Position numbers and translations under genes: made by a program. From contig NC_087077.1 in NCBI RefSeq assembly GCF_026151205.1, positions 3,906,001 through 3,970,000 on the forward strand: a stretch of DNA of 64,000 bases. The letters are read 5' to 3'. Below are positions 3,644 through 58,139 of this stretch, piece after piece (positions within the stretch are counted from its first letter, which is position 1; each line of letters starts with the position of its first letter). A model generated the notes under the pieces. That model was not told the DNA's origin. It was given only the letters and a program-made list of their open reading frames with translations, and did not search any database. This stretch comes from Bolinopsis microptera. Its lineage: Eukaryota; Ctenophora; Tentaculata; Lobata; Bolinopsidae.

Positions 3644-4285
3644 CTTTTGTTTGTCGTGTCCCGCACCGACCGGTATGTGGCTGTATCCACAAGTCAGATA
3701 AGTCTGATAAGTGTTTGTGGAGGGTTGTATACAATCTGATGTGCTCAATAGCCGTAACACATTCCTTAACTATCGATATTGTCAAACAGTTCACCTCCTC
3801 TTCTGAACACTGCAGACCTTTACAGTGTCAAGCCCCGTTAACAATACATTCGCACATATTTTGACTCAAATTATCTTTGATTAGATTGAATATACTTGAC
3901 TGCATACCGCGGTGCTAGTATACCATGATTTCTATATAGAATTCAGCGCCTCCTCGACACTCTAAATAGTATACAACTCGGAGACAGAGGCCTTTCCCCA
4001 TATCTTTTAGCACAATATCCTTTGTAGCTGATAATATATAGCGGACCTATTTTCCTTCTCCCAATTCTAGCTGCCACACTTGCCACATGCCACAAGTGAT
4101 TTCATCGCTGCATATTGCGAGACATTCCTCGTCTCTAACAGCTGCCTGTCTTGCAACACCAGTATTAATGGTGTTTTTGTGCGCTATTCATTGTTTTATT
4201 GTCTAGACTGTAGAGTGGGTGGATGGAGAAGAGTCGGATGCTATCAGGGTGGAGAAGGGTTAAAGTGGTCCTCAGCTCTATCCAG

Positions 4286-4327
4286 AACATTGCTGGCAAC
4301 AGCAAGGACAATGAGTTTCAATATTTG
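4286..4327 (+). CDS. Possible small coding exon, gene unassigned
   Basis: An open segment ends in DNEFQYL at a GTGGGT donor; a CAG at 4283-4285 gives a phase-0 start of 14 codons (NIAGNSKDNEFQYL). An alternative acceptor further upstream would lengthen it in the same frame (VVLSSIQ before NIAG). In either case the donor is in phase with the TRPC exon at 5580, so this is the best candidate for a preceding TRPC exon. Confidence 0.3.
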
Positions 4328-5579
4328 GTGGGTTTGCAGGTTCAACTGTGTTAGCCTATAATCCAAAGTTTATTTTAACACTTTACAGCCTTCTCAAAAT
4401 TAAATTTTTCCCGGAAGTATTTTTGGGCTAAAATTTACGTTAAAATTTCCCAATTAAAACTGGGAAGGAGGGGCTCAGCTTTAGTACAATCATATAGGAG
4501 TAGAGCACAGTGTGACCTTAAAAGAGAAACTAACAGTTAGACTCAGAGCACTACACAACACATTTCTCTTTATAATCCTCATACTGTAAATATCCTTTGC
4601 GTATCAAACAACTGTAATTGCCTAGCTTTGTCGCTTTCTCGCAGATATCAAAGGCACCAAACAGAGCTAGTCTTGTACGTACGTGACAACTGACAACCCT
4701 TCTTTTTATTCACTTAATTTAGATGGCACTACCCATCTTACTATACTTTACACTGCACCACTAATTAAACTTCGATTTTCTATTCTAATCCAATTATAAT
4801 AGCCCACTTCTCCGCCCACCTCCGGTTTACAATAAAAAGGGCTCCACACACCAAACGCTTACTATATCTCGTTTTGTCTGGTGGTTGAGTGCTGCATTCC
4901 TAAGATGCATATCGTGTTGGTTTCAGTAAGTGAATAAGCAAGTCATGGATAAAGTATCTCTTAATAATTTCATATTCCACTGTCGAGTGTTGACAGTATT
5001 GGCAGTGAGTTTACAGGATATTAAACGGAGCTGATTTCTACAATCCCTCTTGATAAACTGCCGGTATTATGACAGATATTATCCAGCACTTTCAGACTTG
5101 TTGTTGTAGTTCATCTTGATACCGTATACTAGTCTACCAGTCTAGATATCATGCTCTAGTCTGGTATATCTGTTATCAAGCTTATGACTAAATTTTTCTC
5201 TAAGAGCCGTGTAAGTGAACTTCTGGAGCAAGGAAGAATGCAAAATCAAATTTTTGACTTTTAAACCATCTCGAGACAGTCCGATCAGTCGAAAGTTTAA
5301 CAGTCTCCAGCCAATTGGTACGCTTTCTGTCCACAGCATTCCACAAATCATTGTCTCCATTCCTCAGCTCTTTGTCTCATTGCTCATCTTATTATTCCCA
5401 ATCATGTTGCATCACGTACCCAGAAAGTACCGTCTAGCTAGCGGTCGTGTTTCATCTAAGAAGCGGATGGAAAAGATGCCTTTACTAAGATACCCAATAA
5501 GGCATCTCATAAGTGTAGTACTAGATACTAGAAAAACAAAGAATATATCTGATACCGTCTTTAACGCACCTTACTTCAG

Positions 5580-8500
5580 TCGTCCTCCAATGCGGCCCCT
5601 ACCTCGGTGGGGGACAAGTTCCTGGTGCAGGTACGAGACGGAAACATGGAGCAGATCAGGAAGACCCTGGATCAGAATCCTGAAGTGATCAACTTCTCAA
5701 ACTCTTACGGAGTAACAGGTCAGCTGAAGCGTCGTAATATAAACGCTTTTATTAATGTTAGGTGTCCCCATATTCTGATTAGGACGCCCGGTTGTTTTTA
5801 TGGGACATGCATATTGCATACCACTGTAGAGTGTAGAAACATGCAGGAAAATATTATTTACTCATTTTCATTTGTATTAAATTGTCGTGATTTAACCTAA
5901 ATTTAGATTAAATCTGAACTAGTTTATGATCAAACGAAGCCATTCAATGTAAAGCTGAAGTCCCATTGATGATTTTAACTGTACTTGGAGTTACCGTGCC
6001 TGTCTGGTAGGATTAACAAATCAATCTTAATTGTAAGTTATCATAATATGATTATGTAATTACAAGTGTTGACGCCTTGTTACATTTTATAAGCAATAAC
6101 AGCTATAACAGTAACTGACATGTCAAACCCTCCGCACAGCTCTGATGCTCGCGGTAGAAAAGGAACACAACGACTTGGTCCGTTTCCTGATTGAACGTGA
6201 CGCGGACGTGAACGCCATCAGCAAGAACTTCCAAAAGGAAACGTCACTGTCGCGCGCGGCAAAAGCGCAGAACAAAGAACTGGTTCGGGTCCTGGTGGAG
6301 AGAGGAGCTGAGATTCAGGTGAGGATGTGTGACTGTCGGGCTGGAATATGCAGGAATATGCAGGAATATGCAGGAATACGTGGAATGCAAGGAGGACATT
6401 TGTTAAGGTGCCTGACAGACGATAGCCAGACTGGGAGTAGTAGATTTTATTGGTATTTTGTGTTTTGTCGGGTAGTCAGTTAGCCAGTATTGAAGTGATT
6501 CCTATTGTATTTATCATGAAATATCAGATTCTGTAATTTAGTGCGAATTTCGTCTATAAAATCCTGTCTATTTAGACAGCAAATAGTTATTATATGTGAC
6601 ATTTTCTTACGCGAGGGTTGGCATTGCCACGAATATAATAAATATATTAAACAGTCTTAATGCCGAAATATAGCAACACGTGATAGAATGAGTTTATAAT
6701 ATTAATTGTTATTTTATTTTTTAAGGTGTAAATATTTTCAGCAAGCTCTCAACTGTATTTGTAATCCACAAATTGGCAACGATTGGGTTAACGATGAGAA
6801 AGCTTTCTCCTTAACTGGTTTGTTAAAAATATCACATCTATAATTTTAGTGATAATTATTCTCCTTACTTTGTTGACAGTTTGATAATATCGCTGGAATC
6901 CAATTTAAAGTATTTTCCGGGCACTCCTTCGGTTTGTATTGGTCCTTGTGGTGACATTTCTCTTCTGTTGTGATTTGGGAATGTTTGGTTAGGTGAGATA
7001 ACAAAATAGAACTTGAAAATCTGTCTGAGCTGAAGTTTTCCTAACCTCCTGACTCCTGTGTATTTTCAGGGGTGAAAATGTTGGTGTCACCGCCGATTCT
7101 AGCAGCGACTAAAGAGCCGATATTGACGGCATTCAGCGTCAGCAACAAACTTTACATTCTAGCGAAACGGCGAGAGGAATACCGCGATATATACAGCTCG
7201 CTGGCACAAGAGGTACACTAAATAATACTTCAGTAGGGGGGGGGGGGGGGGGGGGGGGTTCATGAGTAATTTTGAGAATTTTTTAATCTGAGAATTTGAC
7301 CATTTTAGCCGGGAATACTCAAAAATGTCTCATAAATTATTTTTGAATCTGAGAAATTCAGGATGGATTTCTCATTTTCTCAAAATTTTCCAGTCAAAAA
7401 TCATTTTTGAATCTGAGAAATTAAGCATGGATTTCTCATTTTCTCAAAAATTGTCCACTCAAAAATAGTGATATACCAAATCATTCTTCATATCAGTGCA
7501 ATGTGGTCCAAAAATACTCAAAATCAATTTTTGAGAATGAGGTTTCGCCTCTCCTGGAAACTTTTCTCAAAAACAATTTTTGAGAATGAGAATTTGGCAT
7601 TTTCGTCGAGACTCTCAAAAATAGTCATGACCACCTCCCCCCCCCCCCCCCCCCCCCTACTTCATATTAATGATTACTAATCATAGAGTTTAAAGCACCC
7701 TTATGACTCTGACGTTATTTACTAACTATGTCTATATATATAATACATAGTTAGTAAATATATCTATATCAGGAGGTGACCGGGACATGATTTTAGGCCT
7801 GACCGGGACCGGGACCGGGACCGGGATACAAAATGTACCTGACCGGGACCGGGACCGGGACTGGGACTGAGATTATCAATTTACCGTGACCGGGACCGGG
7901 ACCGGGACCAATAATTTCTGGGATTTCTATCTTACCGGGACCGGGACCGGGACCGGGACCAACAATCCAATTTTACCGGGATGACCGGGATTTGACCGGG
8001 ATGACCGGGATGACCGGGACCAAAACTGGTATTCTCATATTGAAAGCTGCAACTTTCATTTACATTATAATTGAACAATTTGAATAAGTAATAACTAGAA
8101 TATTAAATTAGAACAAACTTTTAAAAAACCGTCAATATGGGGCATGGGCCTAATGTACTACACCAATAATGTTCATGTACTGATTACTCAAGTTCACCCT
8201 CATTCCTCATTCCTCAATCAATGATCCCTCAAATTATTCAACAGTTTCATTCTCCAATTCCAATTGACAATTGACAATTGGGCGTTGAAAACTTGATGTT
8301 AGTTTGCACTTATGAGTTATGTAACGATATTAGTTACCTAAACTTGTTTAGCAATTTTAAACATTGTTTTATTTGGCTCAGAGCGTTGTTTAAAGATGAA
8401 ATTCACAATGAATGAAAGTCAAAACTTAAAATCACAGTGAATGAAATTATGTAAAAGATCCCGGTCAAAATCCCGGCAAATTTGAGTGATTGACCGGGAC

Positions 8501-15048: not shown

Positions 15049-15171
15049 TTGTAGCGCGATGCACTATTGGGTCGCGCGCGCATCCAATAATGCTTCTCGC
15101 AACCTTCGGTAGATCGGCGAGATGCACCACTGTGCCTCACCGAGCTGCGAAGGATTGACATCGTGAATCAA
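15049..15171 (+). mobile_element. Short element, family D (TTGTAGCGCG...GAATCAA)
   Basis: A 123-bp GC-rich unit starts TTGTAGCGCGATGCAC and ends GATTGACATCGTGAATCAA. GGCCGGGA flanks it on both sides (15041-15048 and 15172-15179), a perfect 8-bp target duplication. A second, 90-bp copy lies at 58050-58139. There is no coding capacity. The end sequence recurs, often inverted, at several other places in the window. Confidence 0.85.
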
Positions 15172-28566: not shown

Positions 28567-33174
<4,608 letters not shown>

Positions 33175-34020
33175 TCCTTTTGGGAATTAGTAGACTGATA
33201 GGTGTTTTATTCATGTCATCATTGACCTGGAATGCAGATATTTTATTGAGATTAATATCACGTAACCATTTTTTTTACACTTGTAATTGTGGGTATATTG
33301 TATCACAAATGAGTGGATAAATCCAAAACCATAAAATTCTCTGCCAAGAAAACAACAATTTGCAGTATGTAAAACAAAGTTATCAGTGAGTATTATTAAC
33401 AAATATCATTTAATTATAGATTACGGGGACGAAATGAGAGTTTCCACTCACTGAAAAAACGAAATACATCATGTATTGTCAACGTTTCGGCTACATTCCT
33501 TTGTCATAGACGAAAATCCGGAAATTAACACACAGTTATCTGAGCCTATAAGTAATGGAGACTAAATTAAATATACTTGTAAATTAATGTAAGGAACTTT
33601 TCTTTATGAAGTCGATCTAGCTAGTTAAATTATGTGGAGAATATGTGAAACGGAATAAATTAGTTGAAATAAAGTAACGAGTTCCATCGTCAACAAAATA
33701 CTTTATACACTTAATATGTAGGGATTTTTAAATCCTATGTCAGTTAATGAATATATTAAGTAATTAAAGATGGACCAATTGAGTACAAAAATATTTGATA
33801 TGAGGAGTGTCAGATTACGACTTAAGTTTGTCATGTGTATCTAGGAGACCTTATCAATCAAGGAAAAAGAAATTAACATGGTAAGAAGGCAAATTTAAAA
33901 ACCGCAAAGTATTTAAATACACGACAAAGGCGTTTTTATGTAAAACAGCAACATTCATTAAATTCAAACGGTTCTTTCGGATCGCAAATGAAATTTGATG
34001 AAATCTACTTAAGTGCCGAC
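33175..34020. other. 5' flank of DHX38, no gene seen
   Basis: Includes about 52 bases of likely 5' UTR exon (33175-33226). The remainder is AT-rich with no recognisable element. Confidence 0.5.
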
Positions 34021-34021
34021 C

Positions 34022-34860
34022 TGCGAAGGATTGACATCATCAATTAATACATATTACAGTGACAACTCAGTAAACCACTCATTAATATGCAAAAGGGGTG
34101 GATATGTATCTCTTCGCCACAACTCATTGAGGGATGTGATAGCAGAGCTATTAGAAACTGCTGGCTGTAAAGATGTTACCACTGAACCTCTCCTCATTCC
34201 TGTCAACGGGAGAGAACTTCCTGCAGGGGCCAACAAAGCAGATGGAGCTAGATTAGATGTTAGTGCTAGGAGTGTATGGAACCCATTGGAAAGGGCATTT
34301 TTAGATGTAAGAGTATTTCATGCTCAAGCTCCTTCCAATAAGGCTCTTGGATCTCCAACCACTATGTACAATACTCACGAGAGACAGAAAAAGAATTTAT
34401 ACAATAAAAGGATTGTAGAAGTGGAACATGGGACGTTTACACCGATAGTCCTATCAACCACTGGGGGTATGGGGAGGGAAGCTAATAAGTTCTTCAAGAA
34501 ATTAGCGGATAAACTTTCTAGGAAATCAGGCCAACGGTATAGTGAGGCAATGACATTTATTAGGAAGAGAGTAAGATTTGACCTATTGAGAACAACAGTC
34601 ATAGCTCTTAGAGGAGAGAGAGGGTTAAAAAGTAGTAGTGCATTAAAATAGCAGAATTAGATATAAATTTGGTGCCAGTTCTTTAAACTGGCTTACTTAT
34701 ACTACTTAAAGGGTGTTTATAAATTTTATTTAGTGTTCTGTTGAATTTATAATGAATTTTTATATAGGGTAATTATTATATTTATTTAATTATGTTAAAC
34801 AATTCGTTAATCATTATTGGTTGTATAAATAGTTGATTCACGATTTCAATCCTTCGCAGC
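34022..34860. mobile_element. Inverted-repeat bounded unit carrying a retroelement C-terminal fragment
   Basis: The left end CTGCGAAGGATTGACATCAT is matched in inverse by the right end around 34832-34858 (TTGATTCACGATTTCAATCC followed by TTCGCAG), giving terminal inverted repeats of about 25-30 bp with few mismatches. These ends are the same sequence that terminates the family D elements. On the right, homology to family D continues to about 34893. The interior is dominated by the coding fragment at 34049-34651. No target duplication was identified. Confidence 0.7.
34049..34651 (+). pseudogene. C-terminal fragment of the RT/nuclease retroelement family
   Basis: An open frame of about 200 codons homologous to the C-terminal domain of the retroelement at 19.9-21.6 kb: NHSLICKRGGYVSLRHN (zinc-cluster side), GARLDVSARSVW...AFLDVRVF (PD...D-like nuclease core), VEHGTFTPIVLS and the terminal basic RKRVRFDLLRT block. 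The reverse-transcriptase part is absent. The frame is undamaged, unlike its noisy relatives at 42.2 and 43.5 kb. The sequence before about residue 12 is inverted-repeat derived. Confidence 0.82.
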
Positions 34861-34893: not shown

Positions 34894-36189
34894 AGAAAAG
34901 TGTGTCAAACAGTATATATACATTCAATTAAATCAAGTGATGCGATTGGCAGAGCACAATCAAATTTTAAGTGTTGCAATTGGCAGAGCACAATTCATTG
35001 CATGCTACCAATAATTTGGTGCATTTTGCCGATCTAACGTTATCAGAGATGGTTGTTAAAATTCATTATTGGAAGCGCGGCGCGGCCTACCAGTAATACA
35101 TTTATCGAGCTACAGCATACAGTATAAATATCAATTAAATTTCGGTACCAATCATGCAGTTATAATTAAATGTGAACTCCGCTTAGTCAGTAGTACGACA
35201 TTAAAAATAGTAACCGCTCCAAATTGCAATACCAAATAATTTGTAAAATCTACTGCTATATTCCTTGTATCACGTGGTGACCCCACTGTCGCTTCACTAT
35301 AGTCAATAGTATGTATCGTCTTCGACGATACAGGGGGAGCCGCGCACTTCGTGCGCGGCGGGTCATACAACGTATGACAATACATTCCTTGACCAAAAAT
35401 TAACTGTTGCCTTCTAATTCAACCGGGAAAACTTTAATTGACGATGTCAACCTTTCCAGATTGTTGCTCTGCGAATTAACAAAGCAACGATCTTAGATGC
35501 GAAGTAAGAATGATAGTTTGCGCGGCGCGTCGAAGTCCTTCAAGGAAAACTCAATACAATGCTATCACCCGACATGGTAGATGTTGACATACGTTGCATG
35601 CCACTTTTCGCGCGCGAAGCGCGCGCCGCCGTAGGCGGTATTGATATTTGGATACGAAACATGTGTCAAGGTAGATGAATGCGATGCTAAATTTTGCACC
35701 GATATAGCTGCATCTTAATAAAAGCAGAAACTATGGAGCGTTTCGAATTAATACGTACAGTACATCGTACCATGCATTGATTGACGATGTCAATCCGTCG
35801 AGATCGATGCGAAGCAAGAATGCTAGTTCGCGCGGCGCAGTCCTCCAATACCATGCATTGATCGTACAATTTTGGATCCAAATCGATCAACACAAACTGC
35901 GCTTAGGTGCCGCGCGGTTGGCTACTCGAAGAGTTTTGGCGCGAACCTGTACAAGATAATACGGTATGTCGTAGGCCGCCGCTCATCCAGAAGACGTTTC
36001 CCTGAATTTTGTAGTGGATTTTGTAGTGGATTTTGCGCGCCGCACGTACTTAACAATATTTATCATTGTAGAATCTACGAGTCGTAGAGTCGTAGTACGA
36101 CGGTAGCAGTCAGAAGTCTCAATAAACTGCTCGTACTTATACTTTTAAAGACACTTATAAGATATGAAAATCTAAGTAACACATCCACC
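34894..36189. other. Mosaic of GC-rich short repeats
   Basis: Contains a family A element (35265-35380) and two more copies of the palindromic word TTGACGATGTCAA/TCC (about 35436-35452 and 35777-35795), each followed by GATGCGAAG. Also holds GC-rich hairpin words such as CGCGCGCGAAGCGCGCG near 35608. No gene is seen. Confidence 0.6.
35265..35380 (+). mobile_element. Short hairpin-rich element, family A (TTGTATCAC...TATGACAA)
   Basis: A 116-bp unit with subterminal hairpin words: TCACGTGGTGA at the left, TATCGTCTTCGACGATA and GCCGCGCACTTCGTGCGCGGC (split here by its loop TTC) in the middle, and GTCATACAACGTATGAC at the right. Flanks TATATTCC and TACATTCC match at 7 of 8 positions. Other copies lie at 54537-54645 and 56993-57220, and disrupted ones at 41.5 and 44.0 kb. 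Confidence 0.87.
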
Positions 36190-41514: not shown

Positions 41515-41751
41515 TTGTATCACGCAGTAGCGACCCCCACGGTCGTTTACACTATGCGTGATTGCTCTAACCAGAGCCCTATCGCTTGCAGTAGCGCGCG
41601 ACCGCCCGTAGCTGCAGTTAGCTGCGTGACGCGCCTTGTGAAACAGCGGCGGTCACGCCGTACACGTATACACATGGCTATGTGAAAATGGTGGGACGAT
41701 TACAGGGGGAGCCGCGCACTCGTGCGCGGAGGGCCATACAACATATGACAA
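41515..41751 (+). mobile_element. Interrupted family A element with a family C insert
   Basis: Begins TTGTATCACG and ends CATACAACATATGACAA like family A, but its middle is interrupted by a GC-rich piece starting TTGCTCTAACCAGAGCCCT and containing TTGCAGTAGCGCGCGACCGC. That inserted word (family C) recurs at about 41440, 41820, 43880, 44110, 44260 and 52300. No target duplication is recognisable in this low-quality stretch. A mirror copy lies at about 43985-44220. Confidence 0.6.
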
Positions 41752-42149
41752 AACACATATGCCATGTGACTACGCGTACTGCGTGTCGCGCTTTAATTAC
41801 TTGTTTAAGGCCGCGCGTACTGCAAGCGTGAGGGCTCTGGTTAGAGCATACTTTTTGCTTAATAAAATGTATCAAAATCAAAAAATAAAATCACGTATAT
41901 GCCAAAAATTTGAAAAAATATTAAACAGTGCAGCCGCGTTTAGTCATAATAGAGGAAACAAATTTTAGGGAAAATACAAAATTTAAATTCTGGTATTTAT
42001 TAATAAACAACAAAACATATCATATTCATAAAAATAAGCCGCCGCGTTGTTTGACTCCTTAGTAAGGTAAATATGTTAAGCTTGAAGGTGCCCGCGCATT
42101 ACAAAACCTATTGTGGCGATCACATGACACACGAGGTACTTGTGAGCGC

Positions 42150-42720
42150 AAATGGGGTGGATATGTATCTCTTCGCCACAACCATTGGAGGTGCGATAGA
42201 AGAGCTATTAGAAACTGCTGCTGTAAAGATGTTACACTGAACCTCTCACATTCCTGTCAACGGGAGTGAACCATTCCTGCAGGGGCACAACAAAGCAGAT
42301 GGAGCAGATTAGATGTTAGTGCTTGAGTGTATGAACTCATTGGAAAGGGCATTTTTAGATGTAAGAGTATTTCATGCTCAAGCTCCTTCCAATAAGGCTT
42401 TTGGAGCTCAACCACTATGTACAATACTCAAGAGAGACAGAAAAAGATTTATACAATAAAGGATTGTAAAAGTTGGAACATGGGACGTTTCACCGATAGT
42501 CCTATTATTTCAACCACGGGGGGAGTATGGGAAGGAGGGGTAATTAGTTCTTCAAGAATTAGACGGGATAAACTTACTAGGAAATCAGGGCCAACGGTTT
42601 ATAGTGAGGCATATGACATTTATTAGGAAACGAGAGTAAGATTTGACCTGATTGAGAACAAAAGTCTATAGTCATAGCCTTAGAGGGAGACGAGTGGGTT
42701 AAAAAGTAGTAGTGCAGTAA
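42150..42720 (+). pseudogene. Retroelement C-terminal fragment, left palindrome arm
   Basis: Nucleotide homologue of 34081-34660 (shared GGGGTGGATATGTATCTCTT and TTTCATGCTCAAGCTCCTTC) with many single-base losses that destroy the frame. It ends close to the palindrome axis. Confidence 0.85.
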
Positions 42721-42999
42721 AAATCGCAAGAATTAGAATAAATTTGGAAGCCTGTTCTTTAAATGCTTACTTATTCTACTTAAAGGGTGTTTATAAATTT
42801 TATTATTGTTCTACTGAATTATATTGATTTTTTATATTAGGGTAATTATTTAATTAGTGTAAATTGTTTCGAATAATTACCTTTATAAAAATTCAAATAT
42901 AAATTCAGTAGAACACTAAATAAATTTTAAACACATTTAATAGTATAAGTCAAGCCAGTTTTAAAGAACTGGCTTCCAAATTTATACTAATTCTGCTAT

Positions 43000-43590
43000 T
43001 TTTAACTGCACTACTACTTTTTCCAAACTCTCTCTCCTCTAAGGGCTATGATGACTGTTGTTATCAATCAGGTCAAATCGTACTCTCTTCATAATTAAAT
43101 GTCATTGCCTACACTATACCGTTGGCCAGATTTACTAGAAAGTTTATACGCTATTTCTTGAAGACTTATTAGCTTCCCTTCACCATACCCCCCGTGGTTG
43201 ATATAATAGGACTATCGGTGTGTAAAACGTCCCATGTTACACTTTTACAATCCTTATATTGTATAAATTCTTTTTCTGGTCTCTCGTGAGTATTTGTACA
43301 TAGTGGGTTAGGAGATTCCAAAGACTTATTGGAAGGAGCTTGAGCAAGATTTACTTCTTACATCTAAAAATGCCCACTTTCAATGACGTTCCATACACGC
43401 CTAGCACCGAAATTAACTTGCTCATCTGCTTTGTTGGCCCCTGCAGGCAGTTAGTTCTCCTCCCGTTGACCAGGAATGAGGAGAGGTTCAGTGGTAACAT
43501 CTTTACAGCCAGCAGTTTTAATAGCTCTGCTATCAAACAAATCCCTCAATGAGTTGTGGCGAAGAGATACATATCCACACTTTTGCGCTC
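43000..43590 (-). pseudogene. Retroelement C-terminal fragment, right palindrome arm
   Basis: Inverse copy of the fragment at 42150-42720 (minus-strand words GATGTAAGAAGTAAATCTTG and GTTACCACTGAACCTCTCC). It is also frame-broken, by different single-base changes. Confidence 0.85.
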
Positions 43591-46427
43591 ACAGTCCTCG
43601 TGCATCATGTGATCGCCACAGAGGTTTTGTAAATGCGGGGCACCTTCAAGCTTATAATATGTACCTTACTAAAGGAAGTCAACCAAACGCGCGGCTGTTA
43701 TTTTTATGATATGATATGATTTGATTGTTTTAATAAATACCAGAATTTAAATTGTTTGTTTTCTAAAATTGTTTTCCTATTATTATACTAAACGCGACTG
43801 CACTGTTAATGTTTTTTCAAATTTTTGGCATATAAGTGATTGATTTTTTGATTTTGATAAATTTTATTACAAAATTTTGCTCTAACCTAGAGCCCTCTCC
43901 CGCTTGCAGTTAGCGGCGAGGGACATGAAACAAGTAATAAAGCGCGTACGCAGTACGCGTAGGTCACATGCTATGTGTTGTCATATGTTGTATGGCCCGC
44001 CGCGCACGAGGTGCGCGGCTCCCCTGTATCGTCACCTTTTTTCACATAGCCAGTGTATACGTGACTGCAGTGACGCGCTTGTTCACAGCGCGTCACGCAG
44101 ATACTGAGCTACGGCGGGTCGCGCGCCTTCTGCAAGCGAGAGGGCTCTGGTTGAGCAAAGTCACCATAGGTGAACGACCGTGGGGTCGCAACGGTGATAC
44201 AAGTGCTTTCGCGCCGCTGCGGGGGCGCGATTGTTTCATAAGTCAGGCACGCGCTATACTGCAAGCGCAAGGGCTTTGGATAGAGCAAACTTTGGGTACA
44301 AAAGTGGTACAAAAATATTATTAGTGAGTCGCGCTTTTTATTTTTCCAAACTTTTTGCTAATTGCGTGGATCCATTTGAAAAATGTTATGAATTTTATTA
44401 AACAAAATGTAACAAAGATTTTTGCAAAGTTGTGAAGTATTATTATATTGACGGACATTGTTTTGAGGATGATAATGTCTAAGTTTCTTCGAAGCTAGGC
44501 CGCGTCGCCGCTTTCTTCTCGAAAGTTGGCAAGAGCTACGAAGTAGCGGCGCGCGGGCCCGTTTTTTTTTCCGATCATTAACAATGGTCAAGACCATGTA
44601 ATTAATTTGTATGTTTTTGATACGTGAAATTAACCATATTGGCTTTTATTACACTTGCAACGTTGCGCTAGTATTAAAGTAATTTTGATGTTGGCTAAAT
44701 CTTTTCCCGGTGGAATTTTAATGTCCACATTTTAATTGATACCGATTCTAATCTTATGTAACGATTACCAAAATCAAAGAGACTAAAACTTTAGACTTAT
44801 TTGTATTAAACTTCCTCCACCTTCTCCAAATCCTGCTGCCAGAGAGACTCCAAATTATATCCATGAAATATTAACATAGCATTCGACATCAGGGATCCGA
44901 GAGTCTTGGAGTTCGGTTACCACGCCCCTGGTGCAACCGGCGGGTTAACGAACGGATAGGACAGGGACTTCCAGGGGAGTCATGGCATGCTACGTGCAAA
45001 ACTCGTAGGAGTATGTAATGTTCATGCATCGTCATTGTGACTGCTACTCTATTGTTGTTTTGTAGTGTCCGATCCAAACCAAATCCTAGGGTACACGGAC
45101 GTGGAAGCCTGTGAGCGTGCTCGAGTCTGTTAAGTGTTGGTCTAGAGCTACACGAGACTTGGTAGCCTAGTAGAGCGTGTCTAAATCCTGGGGTTACACG
45201 AGTCGTTCGTGACTAAATGTGAGCATGTTTTAAATCCTAGGGTTACACGAGAATGGTTTAAGCCTTAGTGAGGCGTGTAGACGCTCTTATATCGTTGTTT
45301 GTGTGTCCGATCCAAAAATACCAAAACCTAGGGCCGGTTAACGAGGCGTGGAAGACTGTGCAACGTTAAAATCCTGTGGGTTACACAAGACATGGTAGCA
45401 GGTGGCGTGTAGGACCGCTCTCTATCGTTATTTTGAGTGTCCGATTCCTATTTCATAAAAACAATTCCTAGGGTACACGAGACGTGGAAAAGTCTGTGAG
45501 CGTGTTAGAGTTGTTAGAGTGTTCTAAGGATTCCTAGGGGTTACACAAGACGAGGTTGATGTGTGGCACGTTAAATCTGGGATTACGAGACTTGGTATAG
45601 CAGTGAGCGTGTGAGCGCTCCCTCTATAGTTGAGCCATCATCCCGGTTTGGTGAGGTGTTTCCGTGGGGCTTGTTATAACTTAATTATGGGAAGAACTAC
45701 CACTTGAGATTAAGAATTGTACAACCATTGGAATCTTTTATAAGTGTATTCTGAAAAACATGCTAATAATTTCTTATTAATATTTGTCAATCCTAGTTTT
45801 CCCTAATCTGGTTTACTGGAAAATGCATATAAATTATCGTTTATTTAGTGTATCAAGTATAATCTCCCTTTATTGGTTTAAGAATATAATGTGGGTTGCT
45901 TTTTCAGGTTTTATGTACCTCAAATGTTTTCGTGGCACATTGTTATTTTAAGTTGTTGTGACACTAATATAAAAGTTTAAGTTATTATTATTAATATAAC
46001 TAATCACCTGAATTAAAAGTATTGTGTAGACTAATAAATATCCCAAATATTTTGAAGGTTTCCATCCAATATGGTAGGTCCTCCTTATTTAACTTTGAAT
46101 CACGTTATTTTTATAATTTGGCTGAGTTGACTGGACAACATTGATAAGGATCCCTACTGGTGAAGGTAACAATGAAAATGTTCCATAGATAAACTGCACG
46201 TGATTACCCCTACTTGTAACCTGGCTGGCGAACAGCATGGCACATATTAAGATGTGTAGCTGACTGTATAATAATCATACCATGATTATTATATTAAATC
46301 TAGGATTTTGGACCTGGACCGATCATTCGGCCACCTATCACTAAGTAACTATTCCTAATCTAATCAGCAATCACGTAAACTAGCCTGATTCCATCATACG
46401 GAAAACCTATGAATCCCACAGTGACAG

Positions 46428-51344: not shown

Positions 51345-51640
51345 ATCCGAGCGGAGTCCGGCGGTGCTCCGCCAAAATGTATTTACACTGGACTCGAATA
51401 CATTTTGGCGGACTCCGAGCGGAGCCGAGCGGACTCCGAGCGGACTTTAAAGTCCGCCGCGGACTCCGAGCGGCTCCGCGGCGGCTCGGCGGAGTGTCCG
51501 CCGCGAACTAAGCCACTAGGCGGACTCCGGTCCGCCGCGGACTCCGGCGGAGTGCTTGGCGGACTCCGGCGGACCTCTCCGGCGGACTTGAATCCGGCGG
51601 AGTCCGGCGGAGCTTGGACTCCGCCCGGAGTCCGCCGAAC
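51345..51640 (+). repeat. CGGACTCCG minisatellite
   Basis: Iterated GGCGGACTCCGAGCGGA-like words, strongly GC-rich and partly self-complementary. Open frames across it on both strands are composition artefacts. A shorter mirror block lies at 54478-54535 and 54646-54700. Confidence 0.9.
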
Positions 51641-52403
51641 TCCAACAGAGTCCACTGACTTCCGACCTCCGACTTCCGACCCTCGGCTAAATTTGTCACG
51701 TGACATACAACATAGCATTTTGCGATATTGTGGTCAGATGAAAAGGTCGCTAGTGATAAACCTTAACCATTACCCTCACAATGTCAATAGTGTACAACTC
51801 TAGTCCTAACTTTGACCCTATAATGTATAAACGTTGACCCTAACCCTCCACCAAACCGTCAGCAGCGAAATATCAATGTCATTGACTGGTCACGTGACCA
51901 AAACAATTTTTGTCATATTATCTCATATAGGGAAGCGTTTTTAGTTTTACCCTACACGTTGCATGTGGTGTCATTTGGCCGGATCCCAGCAAGCAAAAAT
52001 ACGTCGACCAGATCACAGTACGACACCAGCACTCTCTACGCTCTTCGAGCTCCGATCGTCCTGTGACGAAGTAAGGACGAAGCCTGAGGTCCTCAGGTAA
52101 CATCGACCACCGATTGTAAATTCAGAGATTTTTTGACATAAAGGTCAAATGTAAAACTAAAATCTTAATCATAATGCAATGTTGATTGATTGACGACGTC
52201 AATTTTTGAGCACAGCGCGAGCGCATGCGGAAAAGGACCGCGTAGCTAGTAGTATAGTCAAGATGTTGATAAATATTTGGCTTGTGGCGCGATATGTTGC
52301 TCTAACTATAGCCCTCTCGGTTGCAGTAGCGCGCGACCGCCGGAGGCGGAAATGACCTAGTTAGCTAGGTAAACGCGATGTGCCTTGTAGGATGTGCCTT
52401 GTA

Positions 52404-52454
52404 GCAACGAGCTTCGTTGCTCGTCGCACGTCGACGAACAACGAAGCTCGTTGC
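52404..52454. repeat. Perfect 16-bp inverted repeat (hairpin)
   Basis: GCAACGAGCTTCGTTG at 52404-52419 is exactly mirrored at 52439-52454 around a 19-base spacer that is itself GTCGACG-rich. It sits just past a family C word (TTGCTCTAACTATAGCCCTC, near 52298). Confidence 0.9.
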
Positions 52455-53189
52455 AACGCGCCGCGCAATGAGCTGCCAGGCTAAGACATCATCCTGGTCC
52501 AACAAATTTTGGCGAGCGATTTTCTCCAAAAATTTAATGAGGGCGCCGACTTCCACTCTGGCTAGGTTTCTTCTTACCCAGCGCGCGTTCCTTAATGGAT
52601 GAGGTAAAATTAGGTAAAAAGAATCCACCGACTTGGCCAGAGTGCTTTCATGAAACTTTATTATACTAGCTTGGCGTTGTAGGATTATATACTTTAATTT
52701 CGGATCGAGTGAAGCGAGTGATACACATTACTTTGATTAAACTCATGCTGATCACAATACAGTACAGGGAAGTGGGTAACACGGCTTGCAGTCGCAGCTG
52801 CGGCTTCTCGCTGGCGGTAATATTTCAATGAACAAGAATTAAGAAAAAGAGAATTTAAGAAAAAGAGAATTTTATTTGCCACAGAATAATCAATACATAT
52901 AATATACTTCAAAAACTTCAAAATATATTGTAAGTTCATCTATCGTTCATAAGATGGGGTACTCTCAATAATCAAGTACATGATTACCCGACCCGCCGCG
53001 CCACGCAAGCACCACACTGCAATTGAAATTGGAGATGTAAGCATAATGGGCGCGGGGGCGCCGCGCACGTGGATCGAGCCGGCCCACGTACCCAAATTGC
53101 AAATGCAAATGTACATGTCACAATGTCACACTCACAGTCACATTTATTAATTTCTACACAATTTATTCATTATACTTATCTGCCCACGA

Positions 53190-53445
53190 GTGCTGGTATC
53201 AAATTGTGTCTTAAGACACTTTCTAGTGGTCTGAATAGTTCTGCTATGTTGGGAACAGTTCTTTGAAGGTATTGCCATCTGCAATTTACTCCTTTAGTGT
53301 ATGCAGCTAACGCTGCCTGTGGCTCATCGGCAGCAAATGTAGAAAGTTTTTTTATATCCTTTACCCATTTCTCTACTTTCTTTTTGACATGATATTCCTC
53401 CTTGAACCTAGGGGTTCCAATTACCGCTCCGAGGTAATAATATAT
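53190..53445 (-). pseudogene. Retroelement fragment (middle part of the RT family)
   Basis: The minus strand reads LGAVIGTPRFKEEYHVKKK, FAADEPQAALAAYTKGV and PLESVLRHNLIPALVG. This aligns with the segment after RHLGAVLG in the 19.9-kb copy (TPEFKDTY, SQPQAAYACFTHGV, ITHELIPTIFG). Only this central part is present, ending in a stop; the catalytic LADDA and nuclease parts are absent. Confidence 0.85.
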
Positions 53446-53559
53446 GTAACTACTAATATAATAAGTTAAATTTTGAAGTGAAGGAAAAAGGACGAGTTTT
53501 CGATAATCTGTGATGATGTTTATGTCATTATTTTTGATTTGATTTGATTTGATTTGAAG

Positions 53560-53836
53560 GCATTCTCAGCATCTATAAGAATACGCTCCTACTAAATCGC
53601 TCGCCCAAATTTTAAGAAAATTCTTGTGAAAAGGCCCTAAGGGCATGAAATTGATCTGGATCGGTATATTTTTGAACGCTGATTCCGAATCACCCCCATG
53701 ACGTAGGGTAAAAATGCTTACCTGAAGAGTTATGGGCAAAAAACTGTTTTGGTCACGTGACAGGCTAGTTAAACACACATTCGATTGTTTCGGACTCGGG
53801 TTAGGGTTAGGGTTGTGGTTAGGGTTATGAATAGCT
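53560..53836 (-). repeat. Dispersed repeat with TTAGGG block (inverse of 13.1 kb)
   Basis: Three TTAGGG-type units at 53797-53820 with further degenerate ones to about 53860. To the left lies the GATTCGGAATC-containing module, homologous in inverse to 13110-13310. It is not a telomere end, since it is flanked by unique and repeat DNA on both sides. Confidence 0.7.
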
Positions 53837-54208
53837 TTGGGGTTATGTAATGGTTAGGGTTAGGATCAATCAATCACCATCAAGATTTTAGTTTTACATT
53901 TGACCTTTATGTCAAAAAATCTCTGAATTTTCAATCGGTGGTCGATGTTACCTGAGGACCTTAGGCTTCGTCCTTACTTCGTCACAGGACGATCGGAGCT
54001 CGAAGAGCGTAGAGAGTGCTGGCGTCGTCCAGTGATGGTCGACGTAATTTTGCTTGCTGGGATCCGGCCGAATGACGCCACATGCAACGTGTAGGGTAAA
54101 ACTAAAAACGCTTCCCTATATGAGATAATATGACAAAAATTGTTTTGGTCACGTGACCAGTCAATGACATTGATATTTCGCTGCTGACGGTTTGGTGGAG
54201 GGTTAGGG

Positions 54209-54274
54209 TTGTAGGTTTACAACCTACCAGGACGCGCGCCATGGAACAGATATTTTACGAGTATCACCCGTTAA
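54209..54274 (+). mobile_element. Short element, family B (TTGTAGGTTTAC...CCCGTTAA), 66 bp
   Basis: Perfect 9-bp flanking repeat GGGTTAGGG (54200-54208 and 54275-54283). The mirror arm of the surrounding inverted repeat has a single CCCTAACCC and no insert at 51838-51846, which is an empty site. The left end GTAGGTTTACAACCTAC is a hairpin. The interior lacks about 30 bases found in the 57085 copy. Confidence 0.93.
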
Positions 54275-54536
54275 GGGTTAGGGTCAACGTTTATACATTA
54301 TAGGGTCAAAGTTAGGACTAGAGTTGTACACTATTGACATTGTGAGGGTAATGGTTAAGGTTTATCACTAGCGACCTTTTCATCTGACCACAATATTGCA
54401 AAATGCTATGTTGTATGTCACGTGACAAATTTAGCCGAGGGTCAAAAGTCGGAGGTCGGAAGTCAGTGGACTCTGTTGGAGTTCGGCGGACTCCGAGCGG
54501 AGTCCGCCGAGCTGGTGGACTCCGCCAAGCTCCGCC

Positions 54537-54645
54537 TTGTATCACGTGGTGACCCCCACGGTCGCTTCACTACTACTGTAGCGTCTTCGACGCTACAGGG
54601 GGAGCCGCGCACTTCGTGCGCGGCGGGTCATACAACGTATGACAA
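54537..54645 (+). mobile_element. Short hairpin-rich element, family A, 109 bp
   Basis: Perfect 8-bp target duplication GCTCCGCC (54529-54536 and 54646-54653). The mirror arm carries the single site GGCGGAGC without insert at 51606-51613. Hairpin words in order: TCACGTGGTGA, TAGCGTCTTCGACGCTA, GCGCACTTCGTGCGC, GTCATACAACGTATGAC. There is no coding capacity. Confidence 0.95.
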
Positions 54646-54706
54646 GCTCCGCCGGAGTCCGCGGCGGACCGAAGTCCGCCTAGTGGCTTAGTCCGCGGCG
54701 GATTTT

Positions 54707-55087
54707 ACTAATTCACTCGCCAGCGCGCTATCACGTGTTTTTAATGCCGTGATTTCATTGGTCACCTCCATAGCGCGCATTATTTGTGACAGCATAGTTG
54801 TTTTTACACAATTTGTCCACCGCGCGTGCAATAAACTCAATCTAAGCTCCGATTTGTGACCGAAATGGGCCATAATATGGTTTATGAAACGCATGGCAGA
54901 GAGCGAGTGAGAGAGAGTCAGGAACAAAAGTTTGTATCTGATCTCAGCTCAAGCTAGCACACGCAGGCGCGCTATATCACGCGCACGTGACTTAAACACT
55001 GCAATATCATTGGTCATCTTCATTACATATCCAATGCGAAATACAAACACGCGCTCTTTTCCTATAATCCATGGCGAGTGAATTAGT
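54707..55087. mobile_element. MITE with 16-bp inverted ends
   Basis: Perfect terminal inverted repeats ACTAATTCACTCGCCA (54707-54722) and the complement (55072-55087). The 381-bp interior has mirrored words such as GCGCGCTAT/CACGTG and CATTGGTCA. No clear target duplication, and no coding capacity. Confidence 0.75.
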
Positions 55088-55089
55088 GA

Positions 55090-55155
55090 AACCGTAAGTT
55101 TATACTTTTTGCCGATGACACCAACATATTTGTAATTAGGAAATTTTAGTTAATT
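55090..55155 (+). pseudogene. Tiny LINE reverse-transcriptase remnant
   Basis: The plus strand reads FADDTNIFV (catalytic DD region) and is then lost within a few codons. The same motif occurs in the longer LINE fragment at 55771-56710 on the other strand. Confidence 0.55.
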
Positions 55156-55770
55156 CTTTGATCACCCTTCAGTGCCGGTGGGCAGGCGCCCCGCATAGTT
55201 GGCTTTCCAAATTTACAGTCTCAAGAAAGCCGAAACGGTAATCGAGTCCCGGAGCAGAACACACATTTAGAAAATTGAAAAATTAAAATTAAAATAATAA
55301 ATTAGAAATTAAAAATTAAAAATTACATGACTACGAGAGTCCAGACAGGCAACAAACACACAAACCGGACGATGAGAGGACCCACTGCTGAATTCGACAT
55401 ATAATGAATTGTTGAAAACATAATGATTCCTACACTAATATGATCTTGAGGCATGCCCTGCATGTACTGTGCGAGTACATTGTAAATAATATCTGATAAG
55501 ATGCGGCCAAAAATAGCGGCACGGCGCGCAAAATGCGCGGCGTGACCGCCGAAATTTTATACTTTAAACATTAACATTTCAATCGGCTTTAGCGCTCAGC
55601 ATATCTTCATTGAGTAGACATTAGAATTTCAGTTCGTTGGAATCGAAGTTCAGTTCACACCAATCTATTTCGTCGTACCTGGACTGCATGCCGAGTAACT
55701 CCTTTTTTATTGTGAATTTTACAAGGTTCGTTGATGTAGAGAAGTTGGTATTGCTAGCAGTGTTTCTATA

Positions 55771-56710
55771 CTACAATCGTTCTATACTACAATCGTTCCA
55801 CATTTTTGTCGATTGATATATGAAGGAGGTGGATGGGGTTGGAGTGATGAATCGATCAGCACGTCTTGATGATCTGTGAAATAGATTTAGGAGTGGGACT
55901 GGGGATTCTAATTTATTGATTTTGAACATTTCCAATAAACATGTGTGTTTGAACAAACTGTGTATGGTTAGTAAACCCATTTTTCTTAAATAGCGGTTTT
56001 GTGTGCTGTTTTTCATAGAAGTCGCTTCCTAATTTTTGCTTGTCTTTACTTCGTGTTCTAGCACAAGTTCTAAACTTTTCTAAGTCCGCCTCTCGGTTAC
56101 CAAATAGTATTCTAACACATTTCTTCTGAGTGATAAATATTGGTTCAAGCCTGTTGTTACTAAGGCCACCCCATACTGATATCCCAAATCGCAAGTGTAA
56201 TTCAAATAGTGTGTAGTACAGTTCTTTGTAGAGTTTTTCTGGAATAATGTGCCGTATTCTACAAATTTTCCCACTTTCACATTTCAGCTTTGTGTTGAGC
56301 GACCGTATATGAGCATCCCATTTAAGCTGAACATCAATAATAACACCAAGAAACTTCACCTTTTTGACTTGCTTTATTACTACATTGTTTAGAGTAAGTA
56401 CGTGTTCTTCTTCATTATGTTCTACCTTGCTTTTTCTATTCGTTGGTTTAAAGTGAATGTAACAGCATTTCTTAATGTTAATATGTAGGAGATTACATTT
56501 CATATACAGTTGTACCAGTTTGAGAATTTGGTTTGCTCGTTCATATAATTTTATCTTACATTCATCCGCGACAAATATATTTGTATCGTCAGCAAATAGA
56601 ATGAACTTGCCTAGTTCAGTTGCCCTATATAGGTCGTTGATATAAATAATAAATAGTAACGGACAAAGACAAGATCCCTGGGGTACTCCAAAGAGAACTG
56701 GAAGCTTAAA
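55771..56710 (-). pseudogene. LINE (non-LTR) reverse transcriptase fragment
   Basis: The minus strand reads FGVPQGSCLCPLLFIIYINDL, FADDTNIFV (catalytic Asp pair), then KFLGVIIDVQLKWDAHI and an RT C-terminal tail (ISVWGG...CVRILFG). The 196-codon frame at 55913-56503 is continuous with upstream codons and is followed, after a frameshift near 56000, by 55771-56016 (KMGLLTIHSLFKHT...KMWND). The 5' part of the element is absent. It resembles jockey/CR1/RTE-type ORF2 rather than the RT/nuclease family. Confidence 0.87.
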
Positions 56711-56899
56711 AAAACAGCATTTCTTAATTGTAAAAACATCATTTCTTAATTGTAGTCAACGGGCACAAAAAAGCATTACTAGCAATTGTGTCCTTAACCC
56801 TCTTACATTATTTGAACATTTTTGTGGCTAACTCATTGAACAACATCTGAATTAATATGTACTTAGTATTAAAAGATTCAGTAAGTTATCTTTTCATGT

Positions 56900-56988
56900 T
56901 TGTAGGTTTACAACCTACCAGGACGCGCGCCGAGTTGGACTCGTCGACGGTCCTGCAGAACAAATATTTTACGAGTATCACCCGTTAA
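56900..56988 (+). mobile_element. Short element, family B, 89 bp
   Basis: Starts TTGTAGGTTTACAACC and ends ATCACCCGTTAA like the copies at 54209 and 57085. The flanks do not match (TTTTCATGT versus CAAGTTGTA), partly because a family A element has inserted at its very right end, using TTAACAAG as target. Confidence 0.85.
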
Positions 56989-56992
56989 CAAG

Positions 56993-57220
56993 TTGTATCA
57001 CGTAATGACCCCCACGGTCGTGGTGACCCCCACGGTCGCTTCACCCCTGTAGAGTTTCGAAGATACAGGGGGAGCCGCGCACTCTTGTAGGTTTACAACC
57101 TACCAGGACGCGCGCCGAGTTGGACTCGTCGACGGTCCTGGAAATATATGGAACAGATATTTTACGAGTATCACCCGTTAACGCGCACTCGTGCGCGGCG
57201 GGTCATACAACGTATGACAA
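56993..57220 (+). mobile_element. Family A element interrupted by a family B element
   Basis: Perfect 8-bp target duplication TTAACAAG (56985-56992 and 57221-57228). The left part has a duplicated GACCCCCACGGTCG module. The family B insert at 57085-57181 splits its GCGCAC-GTGCGC hairpin. Confidence 0.93.
57085..57181 (+). mobile_element. Short element, family B, 97 bp, nested in family A
   Basis: Flanked by a perfect 9-bp duplication CGCGCACTC (57076-57084 and 57182-57190) inside the family A hairpin. Hairpin words GTAGGTTTACAACCTAC and GAGTTGGACTC; ends CCCGTTAA. Confidence 0.95.
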
Positions 57221-57228
57221 TTAACAAG

Positions 57229-58040
57229 TTGAATCAAATATTTTACGAGCGAGTATCGTAATTATAAACACATCCAACATTAAAAATAGAGGTATGGCGG
57301 AACAAAAGGCTAAACACCGCTCAGCAGTGAGAAAGTTACAATAATTTTAAATTTTAAAATAGTATTTTCAATGATACACAAAACAATCAACATTTTATTC
57401 GAATTTTAGTATAATTTGAACCTAAAAAGTGTTTCGATTATTTTATTCATTAGTTGTTATCTTTAATTTATTATGACAAACAGAAGGTAATAACTCGTCA
57501 TCAAAATGTATCGCGCGAGAATGTTTTAGTAGACGCGCATGTGACGTCACAACTGAAGAGCTCGCACTCTCGCAGTGGGTCGCCCGTTAAATGTGCGGCG
57601 TCGCTTCATGTTACCATGTACTTTCGTGCCACTGCAGGCGCGCTTGTTTTATACCGCTGGGAGGCCAAGGTTGGCTCGCGCAACTGTAAGCGCAAGGGCT
57701 TTGTATTCTACAAAGCAACGGCTTCGCTCAGAATTAGTTTTAAATTTTGCTACAATTTACAATAAATGTCGCCAACAATACATATATGTGTATATAATAT
57801 GTGTATTTGTGTATTGTAAAGTTTAAAATACGCTAGCAAGAGTTCAAATAATCTAGTATCGTTTTTTGTTTAACTGTCAAAAACGGCTTTTCCGGCTGAG
57901 TCAACAGTCAAATAAAAACTATTTTATTAAGGTACTTGAAATTTGATGACAAAAGGTACAAGGTAACACAAATTTATAGTTTTGTATTCAGTATTGTAAA
58001 AATTAAAAGTTCTTATAACATGTTTAATGTTAAAACGACC
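57229..58040. other. AT-rich stretch without a gene
   Basis: Begins with a partial repetition of the family B tail (AAATATTTTACGAG). Near 57650-57700 a family C-like word (GTAAGCGCAAGGGCTTTG) occurs. I accept no gene here. Confidence 0.4.
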
Positions 58041-58049
58041 ACTGAACCT

Positions 58050-58139
58050 TTGTAGCGCGATGCACTACTGGGCCGTGCGCGCATCCAATAATTCTTCCCG
58101 CAGAGCGGCTAGATGCAAAGGATTGACATCGTGAATCAA
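58050..58139 (+). mobile_element. Short element, family D, 90 bp
   Basis: Starts TTGTAGCGCGATGCACTA and ends GATTGACATCGTGAATCAA. Perfect 9-bp target duplication ACTGAACCT (58041-58049 and 58140-58148). It lacks about 33 internal bases present in the 15049 copy. Confidence 0.93.

Follow-up and report, generated by a model that had tools for sequence, protein, structure and literature searches.

The 64-kb window analysed here (64,000 nucleotides of the ctenophore Bolinopsis microptera; C6:3906001-3970000; 38.3% G+C) contains short insertions with hairpins next to TT/AA termini, which we sort into families A, B, C, D and F. An initial annotation, made from the letters of the window, had named families A, B and D and quoted six duplications of the target site; the three families and all six duplications are present in the sequence. 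It placed them within 54209-58139, a range that encloses five of the six quoted copies, the sixth (D2) lying outside it. It also described the elements as flanked by perfect duplications: those of the six quoted copies are exact, but B2 has no visible duplication and that of an additional A copy, A2, is imperfect.

Insertions in the window and their empty sites

The copies identified are as follows (positions within the window).

54209-54274 (+): B1, 66-bp B element; 9-bp duplication GGGTTAGGG; left hairpin GTAGGTT-TAC-AACCTAC; empty site in the inverted duplicate
54537-54645 (+): A1, 109-bp A element; 8-bp duplication GCTCCGCC; on the right, hairpin GTCATAC-AAC-GTATGAC followed by AA; L108 has its exact empty site
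56900-56988 (+): B2, 89-bp B element; target duplication not visible
56993-57220 (+): A3, A element split by B3; 8-bp duplication TTAACAAG
57085-57181 (+): B3, 97-bp B element inside A3; 9-bp duplication CGCGCACTC; the duplicated region L108 has a 3,951-bp B here
58050-58139 (+): D1, 90-bp D element; 9-bp duplication ACTGAACCT; hairpins GTAGCGC-GAT-GCACTAC and GATTGAC-ATC-GTGAATC, with 6/7 pairs each
15049-15171 (+): D2, 123-bp D element; 8-bp duplication GGCCGGGA
35265-35380 (+): A2, 116-bp A element; imperfect duplication TATATTCC/TACATTCC
35434-35543 (+): F element, 110 bp; 8-bp duplication GGAAAACT
35777-35848 (+): F element, 72 bp; 9-bp duplication TACCATGCA; hairpin GATTGAC-GAT-GTCAATC
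41515-41751 (+): degenerate A element, with a C element (itself lacking a visible duplication) nested at 41562-41686

Two of these insertions can be compared with their empty sites. A large inverted duplication carries B1 in only one of its arms; in the opposite arm the element is absent and the 9 bp occur once, as CCCTAACCC at 51838-51846. For A1, the comparison is provided by L108, a duplicated copy of the window region at C6:3766600-3776400 that is 95-100% identical in the longer matched segments: it reads ...CTCCGCCAAGCTCCGCCGGAGTCC..., with a single GCTCCGCC and without the element. As both empty sites carry a single copy of the duplication and no element, B1 and A1 are precise insertions.

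An inverted repeat spans positions 51497-54702 of the window, with arms of about 0.7-0.8 kb, matched pieces that are 96-98% complementary and many GGCGGACTCC words; similar-looking inverted DNA occurs inside two long B copies described below (L117 and L121). Right ends of the type found in a further family, H (TTACCTGAGGACC...), occur at 53948-53966 and 52082-52100, one per arm of the large inverted repeat, and no partner ends were found there with up to 3 mismatches allowed.

Abundance, target-site duplications and end hairpins

The genome (264,652,675 bases in 232 contigs) was searched with the right end of A, the left end of B and the right end of D, allowing up to 2 mismatches and using the reversed patterns as a control. 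The end matches numbered 2857 for A, 3226 for B and 2918 for D, compared with 0, 2 and 0 for the respective reversed patterns. Family E gave 1786 matches (reversed control 0), bringing the four families (A, B, D and E) to a total of 10,787. For an anchored test of the duplications, 60 copies with exact ends (25 B, 15 D and 20 A) were fetched from the first part of the C1 lists; they were picked by place, before their sequence was known, and so were not selected for duplications. The sample skipped the places of the cluster loci and about nine others (eight A and one D), and L096, which had no anchor, was dropped. One end was fixed and recurrence of its flank was sought at the opposite end, where AA was not required. 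A flank repeat of at least 8 bp was found in 37 of the 59 copies (A 13/19, B 15/25, D 9/15), compared with 0.70% of 11,590 trials in which flanks were exchanged between loci. End matches in the thousands against 0-2 for the reversed controls, together with this excess of duplications, exclude chance. The elements are genuine mobile DNA, they occur in large numbers and at least some of them are recent.

The length of the duplication was tabulated for 108 bounded copies of seven families (A 36, B 23, C 10, D 21, E 4, F 5 and H 9), all of which had been selected for TT..AA and a few of which are not independent, since L010 and L011 are duplicated DNA. It is 8 bp in 35/36 copies of A and 4/5 of F, and 9 bp in 9/10 copies of C, 16/21 of D and 3/4 of E; B has 8 bp in 13 copies and 9 bp in 10, and H has 8 bp in five and 9 bp in four. 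Duplications of 8-9 bp, which the initial annotation had proposed to look for, are thus consistently present in copies from other parts of the genome. The target sites of A show a weak, partly symmetric bias, for instance A at -5 (0.53) and T at +5 (0.44) and, within the duplication, G as the first base (0.50) and C as the last (0.38). The elements also cluster: among exact A, B and D positions on C1 up to 10.4 Mb, another A lies within 2 kb of 42/100 A copies (3.8 expected at random) and a D within 2 kb of 28/100 (2.6 expected), which is about tenfold over random, and several elements are nested in one another, as B3 is in A3.

The signature common to the ends is TT (or TTA) at the very end, with a palindrome directly inwards, usually made of a 7-bp stem and a 3-nt loop. 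The right end of A reads GTCATAC-AAC-GTATGAC-AA and the left end of B TT-GTAGGTT-TAC-AACCTAC, while the two ends of D are TT-GTAGCGC-GAT-GCACTAC and GATTGAC-ATC-GTGAATC-AA. We scanned the window and loci L001-L020 for TT..AA intervals, 40-400 bp long, that lie between exact repeats of 8, 9 or 10 bp, taking at least 6/7 pairs at one end or more as a terminal hairpin and letting a copy count under both 8 and 9. Such a hairpin is present in 42/101 intervals bounded by 8 bp, 20/132 bounded by 9 bp and 0/126 bounded by 10 bp; many of the bounded intervals without a hairpin stem from tandem repeats. When stem offset and loop size were varied over 167 of these intervals, an offset of 2, a stem of 7 and a loop of 3 scored best at both ends (36 and 34 intervals), and the runner-up geometries share their centre with this one. 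Of the modal ends of the families, ten entered a pairing statistic, the right ends of B and F and both ends of C being omitted for their differing geometry; the ten pair at 5.9/7 positions on average, compared with 2.5 with arms borrowed from other ends. Between the two ends of a family the loop is often common (GTT in A, GAT in D, GTT in E) and the stem sequence different. As inverted repeats, the ends agree loosely in A (TTGTnnnACGTTG...), in TTGAC and TGTT in E and in the loop GAT in D, and the two ends of B do not match each other.

Long relatives and presumed internal deletion

At the insertion site of B3, L108 contains a 3,951-bp element with both ends of B3 and nearly equal flanking repeats (CGCGCACTC and CGCGCGCTC). 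A search with this element returned nine more places with both B ends 7-12 kb apart (coordinates judged by eye). All five long B elements that were read from end to end, of 7.1-9.5 kb, have an exact 8-bp duplication.

L109: long B, 7,101 bp; GTTCTAAC
L110: long B, 8,241 bp; AGATTAGG
L111: long B, 7,855 bp; GACATAAG
L112: long B, 8,505 bp; ACATAACA
L116: long B, 9,490 bp; CTCAAACT

A longer element with the same ends, in which the initial annotation hoped to meet a transposase gene, therefore exists for B (7.1-9.5 kb), but no recognizable transposase was found in those read. L109, L110 and L111 share 97-100% identity across most windows of their right parts. In L109 a central block, at element positions of about 3900-5670, is less diverged from L112 than its surroundings and holds exon-like pieces after CAG acceptors (by eye). 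L117-L121, additional stretches of long B interior, carry frames resembling long interspersed nuclear elements (LINEs) and a large inverted repeat, with no transposase-like long frame (by eye, and by Pfam on L117).

In family B, elements of 66-111 bp and of 4-9.5 kb thus coexist with the same ends. The interior of the L108 element belongs to the normal make-up of long B elements and is not flanked by a duplication, so most likely the window copy B3 has lost it. The 19 short B copies below 150 bp have 16 distinct middles, some differing by single bases only; their outer parts are conserved and the junctions between these vary, a pattern that repeated loss of internal sequence would be expected to leave. 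The short B copies therefore look like deletion derivatives of the long ones, a direction that we infer. B1 (66 bp) and a 59-bp D copy illustrate how little of an element has to remain.

For the other families the picture is less complete. In L113 and L114 a D end is followed by longer stretches of interior common to both loci (the first about 81% identical), which suggests long D elements too, but no second D end was found within 7 kb and a long D is unproven. Conserved A ends with other interiors occur at 17 and 84 places according to two patterns (many of the 84 being counted twice); several of these places look nested, a few interiors recur (for instance GACCCCGGCC) and no long interior was traced. 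An A-ended element of 945 bp, with the near-perfect 8-bp duplication AATATAAC/GATATAAC, was seen once (L115, 59-1003); it contains part of an open frame, possibly a captured piece of a gene.

Classification, mechanism and genomic context

We consider it highly probable that these sequences represent at least seven related families of non-autonomous cut-and-paste DNA transposons that have palindromic ends and depend on a transposase supplied in trans. They are short, non-coding and of high copy number, with duplications of fixed length, as miniature inverted-repeat transposable elements (MITEs) are. Non-autonomous transposons are a known kind of element; what is unusual is the architecture of the ends. 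The mobile and minimal elements, presumably moved in trans, that the initial annotation saw are borne out by the end counts, the anchored duplications and the empty sites, and its idea of a relationship between the families holds for their architecture, with TT and a palindrome at most ends and a common duplication behaviour. TTGTA does not survive as the unifying start, given that ends in TTGAT, TTGAC, TTACT, TTGCT and others behave alike.

In line with what is known of cut-and-paste elements in general, a trans-acting DDE-type transposase would recognize the palindromes of both ends, probably binding duplex DNA as a dimer, cut at TT/AA and cleave the target with a stagger of 8-9 bp. Long non-coding copies would give rise to short ones again and again through internal deletion, for which deleted P or Ds elements offer a parallel, and about 30 bp at each end would be all that has to remain. 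A folded single-strand hairpin is possible as the binding form, although no observation demands it.

Several points weigh against this interpretation. The first concern the hairpins: the top value in the cross-pairing of arms from different ends is also 7 (these ends are related), and a number of ends fit the 7-3-7 geometry poorly, namely the left end of A (4-6/7 pairs), the right end of E (2-5), the ends of H (mostly 5) and the right end of F (2-3). In addition, the hairpin at the right end of B is offset seven bases inwards and the ends of C are of 5-4-5 type (C judged by eye). E and H were found partly through the hairpin filter, which makes their pairing partly circular; A, B and D came from the initial annotation and are free of this circularity. 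Secondly, 22 of the 59 anchored copies have no flank repeat of at least 8 bp, some of them being long, nested or damaged. Finally, neither a transposase nor an autonomous copy was found. Six-frame Pfam searches of the whole of L109, of L116 (4500-8000) and of L117 gave no transposase, and those of about 4.5 kb each of L113 and L114 gave none either, with one match below the cut-off.

No open frame reaches 100 amino acids in L109, L111 or L112, or 90 in L116, while L110 has a 351-aa open frame that is reverse transcriptase-like (by eye). The weak six-frame Pfam matches in long B are below the cut-off and lie in its repeat-made part, and ten short frames of L108 gave two Pfam matches, both below the cut-off. 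Substitutions, counted by codon position, show no codon pattern between L109 and L112 (157/166/142) or L116 (70/76/57), a comparison that short spliced exons could escape.

Mutator duplications are of 8-11 bp, mostly 9, and the 8 or 9 bp found here fall within this range, in agreement with the suggestion of Mutator-like transposases in the initial annotation. We regard it as possible, if doubtful, that the elements are ordinary MITEs of a Mutator-like element (MULE), the palindromes being the terminal repeats of that MULE and its coding copy lying elsewhere in the genome. The genome has 88 matches to MULE domains, of which 15 loci (13 groups by eye) were fetched. A precedent is described for Tm1, a Mutator/Foldback family of root-knot nematodes that has duplications of mostly 9 bp and MITE-like members and, like the elements here, combines duplications within 8-10 bp with short non-coding copies beside longer ones (PMC3169594). 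Tm1 differs in the composite inverted repeats reported for it, with tandem 13-15-bp units, and in its one coding copy (PMC3169594), compared with a single short TT palindrome and no coding copy found here. The link to MULEs is unproven: TT-palindrome ends with an exact duplication enclose 0/15 of the MULE loci, and none of the 88 matches falls within the long-B intervals (compared by eye). Where inverted repeats are visible they are different ones, such as GGCAGTATC in L023 and GCGACATCTGTCCG in L021 and L033, and several loci have no discernible ends.

A second explanation, which we can entertain only tentatively, is a transposase of an undescribed superfamily that reads palindromic ends, its source being either a spliced gene within the long elements or a host gene that has been domesticated. 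It would agree with the failure of Pfam to detect a transposase in long B elements, although these show signs of having moved recently (97-100% identity and exact duplications), and with the lower divergence of the L109 block from L112. The models for P (PF21787) and KDZ (PF18758) transposases had no match in the genome, a weak negative, as the controls gave no match either. On the other side stand the absence of codon periodicity across the whole long B copies, a test that short spliced exons could evade, and that of any open frame of at least 90 amino acids in L116.

We consider it very unlikely that the elements are moved by a Merlin/IS1595-type transposase. The genome contains 58 matches to IS1595-type domains, several with open frames of 295-337 amino acids, and 8- or 9-bp duplications like those found here are given as a Merlin feature (PMC8101967). 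However, the conserved ends described for Merlin are 5'-GG (PMC8101967), and terminal GG was not found: the boundary is TT/AA, as set for A and B by the empty sites and the swapped-flank test and for D by the latter. Moreover, TT-palindrome ends do not enclose any of the 12 fetched Merlin loci, which makes 0/27 for the MULE and Merlin loci together. The ends or inverted repeats visible at these loci differ from TT palindromes (GGCAGT or GGCATT in L023, L036 and L038, the two Merlin copies L036 and L038 starting with GGCA), and at several loci the ends could not be made out. Five places carry Merlin-type matches of equal score with a 318-aa open frame, and L042 and L043 share 99% identity along 1.7 kb, suggesting recent Merlin activity. 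Structured-RNA retroposons copied via RNA, in the manner of short interspersed nuclear elements, are scarcely credible: the predicted folding is strong, but both ends are sharp, the duplications are fixed at 8 or 9 bp, the sequences end without a poly-A tail, relatives of 7-10 kb have both ends in common and Rfam finds nothing at the gathering threshold in six copy-rich loci. Rfam gave two chance-level matches in the window, both outside the elements.

Other known systems resemble the elements in single traits. P elements have an 8-bp duplication, frequent internally deleted copies and a 17-nt staggered end cut, a stagger equal in length to the 7+3+7 palindrome; their terminal bases differ from those here, and the P-type RNase H domain is the one without a match above, weak as that negative is. 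The hAT duplication is 8 bp, which fits A (35/36) but not C and D, where 9 bp prevails (9/10 and 16/21); no hAT domain appeared in the Pfam scans of L109 and part of L116, and the genome was not searched for hAT. IS200/IS605 elements and Helitrons, which have hairpins near the element end, are not known to make target duplications, unlike the elements here with their 8-9 bp. Coral CMITEs, from another early-branching animal, are likewise MITEs about 100 bp long that occur in tandem or nested, but are described with TTAA duplications and piggyBac-type CCYT ends (PMC2872659). No description of such elements in ctenophores was found in the openly licensed PubMed Central literature as far as its texts were available, and an unnamed or database-only entry is possible.

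Between 34000 and 44400 of the window there are several direct and inverted copies of one repeat, with a multi-kilobase palindrome around 42000-43700; the degenerate A element at 41515-41751 has a counterpart at 43978-44202 (-), in the opposite arm of a large palindrome. A 212-aa open frame at 34013-34651 has no Pfam match, and a 737-aa open frame at 30973-33186 (-) has DEAD/AAA-type ATPase matches.

The ctenophore lineage has been proposed as sister to other animals (PMC10232365). In Mnemiopsis, more than 90% of loop promoters are reported to contain a DNA-transposon insertion, and loop anchors to have a GC-rich motif that contains two CpGs and to which CTEP1 and CTEP2 bind (PMC12221973). The interior of our hairpin elements is CpG-rich, and it is only a suggestion that some of the GC-rich sites which transposons bring to chromatin-loop promoters in ctenophores come from such insertions, because word sharing between the families is not clearly above that in shuffles. 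The candidate for a common internal CpG-rich motif, 'CGCGCTAC', occurs in 3/7 families, and sharing by three families arose in 17/300 shuffles, so that it is not firm. The endogenous small interfering RNA clusters described in Mnemiopsis are numerous and structured (PMC6211395); such structured clusters would, by analogy, suit hairpin elements.

We think it unlikely, but worth stating, that the families form a new DNA-transposon superfamily, so far seen in one ctenophore, in which each end would be read as a palindrome or extruded triloop hairpin and not as a matched inverted repeat, the stems drifting while each end keeps its own hairpin and the loop. In this scheme the 17 nt of the hairpin might correspond to the single-stranded overhang left by a staggered cut, as in P elements. 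If it is true that independent hairpins, and not a common inverted repeat, define both ends, this would be a different rule of end recognition, for which the families, with their several loop types and natural arm variants, would be a ready-made test set.

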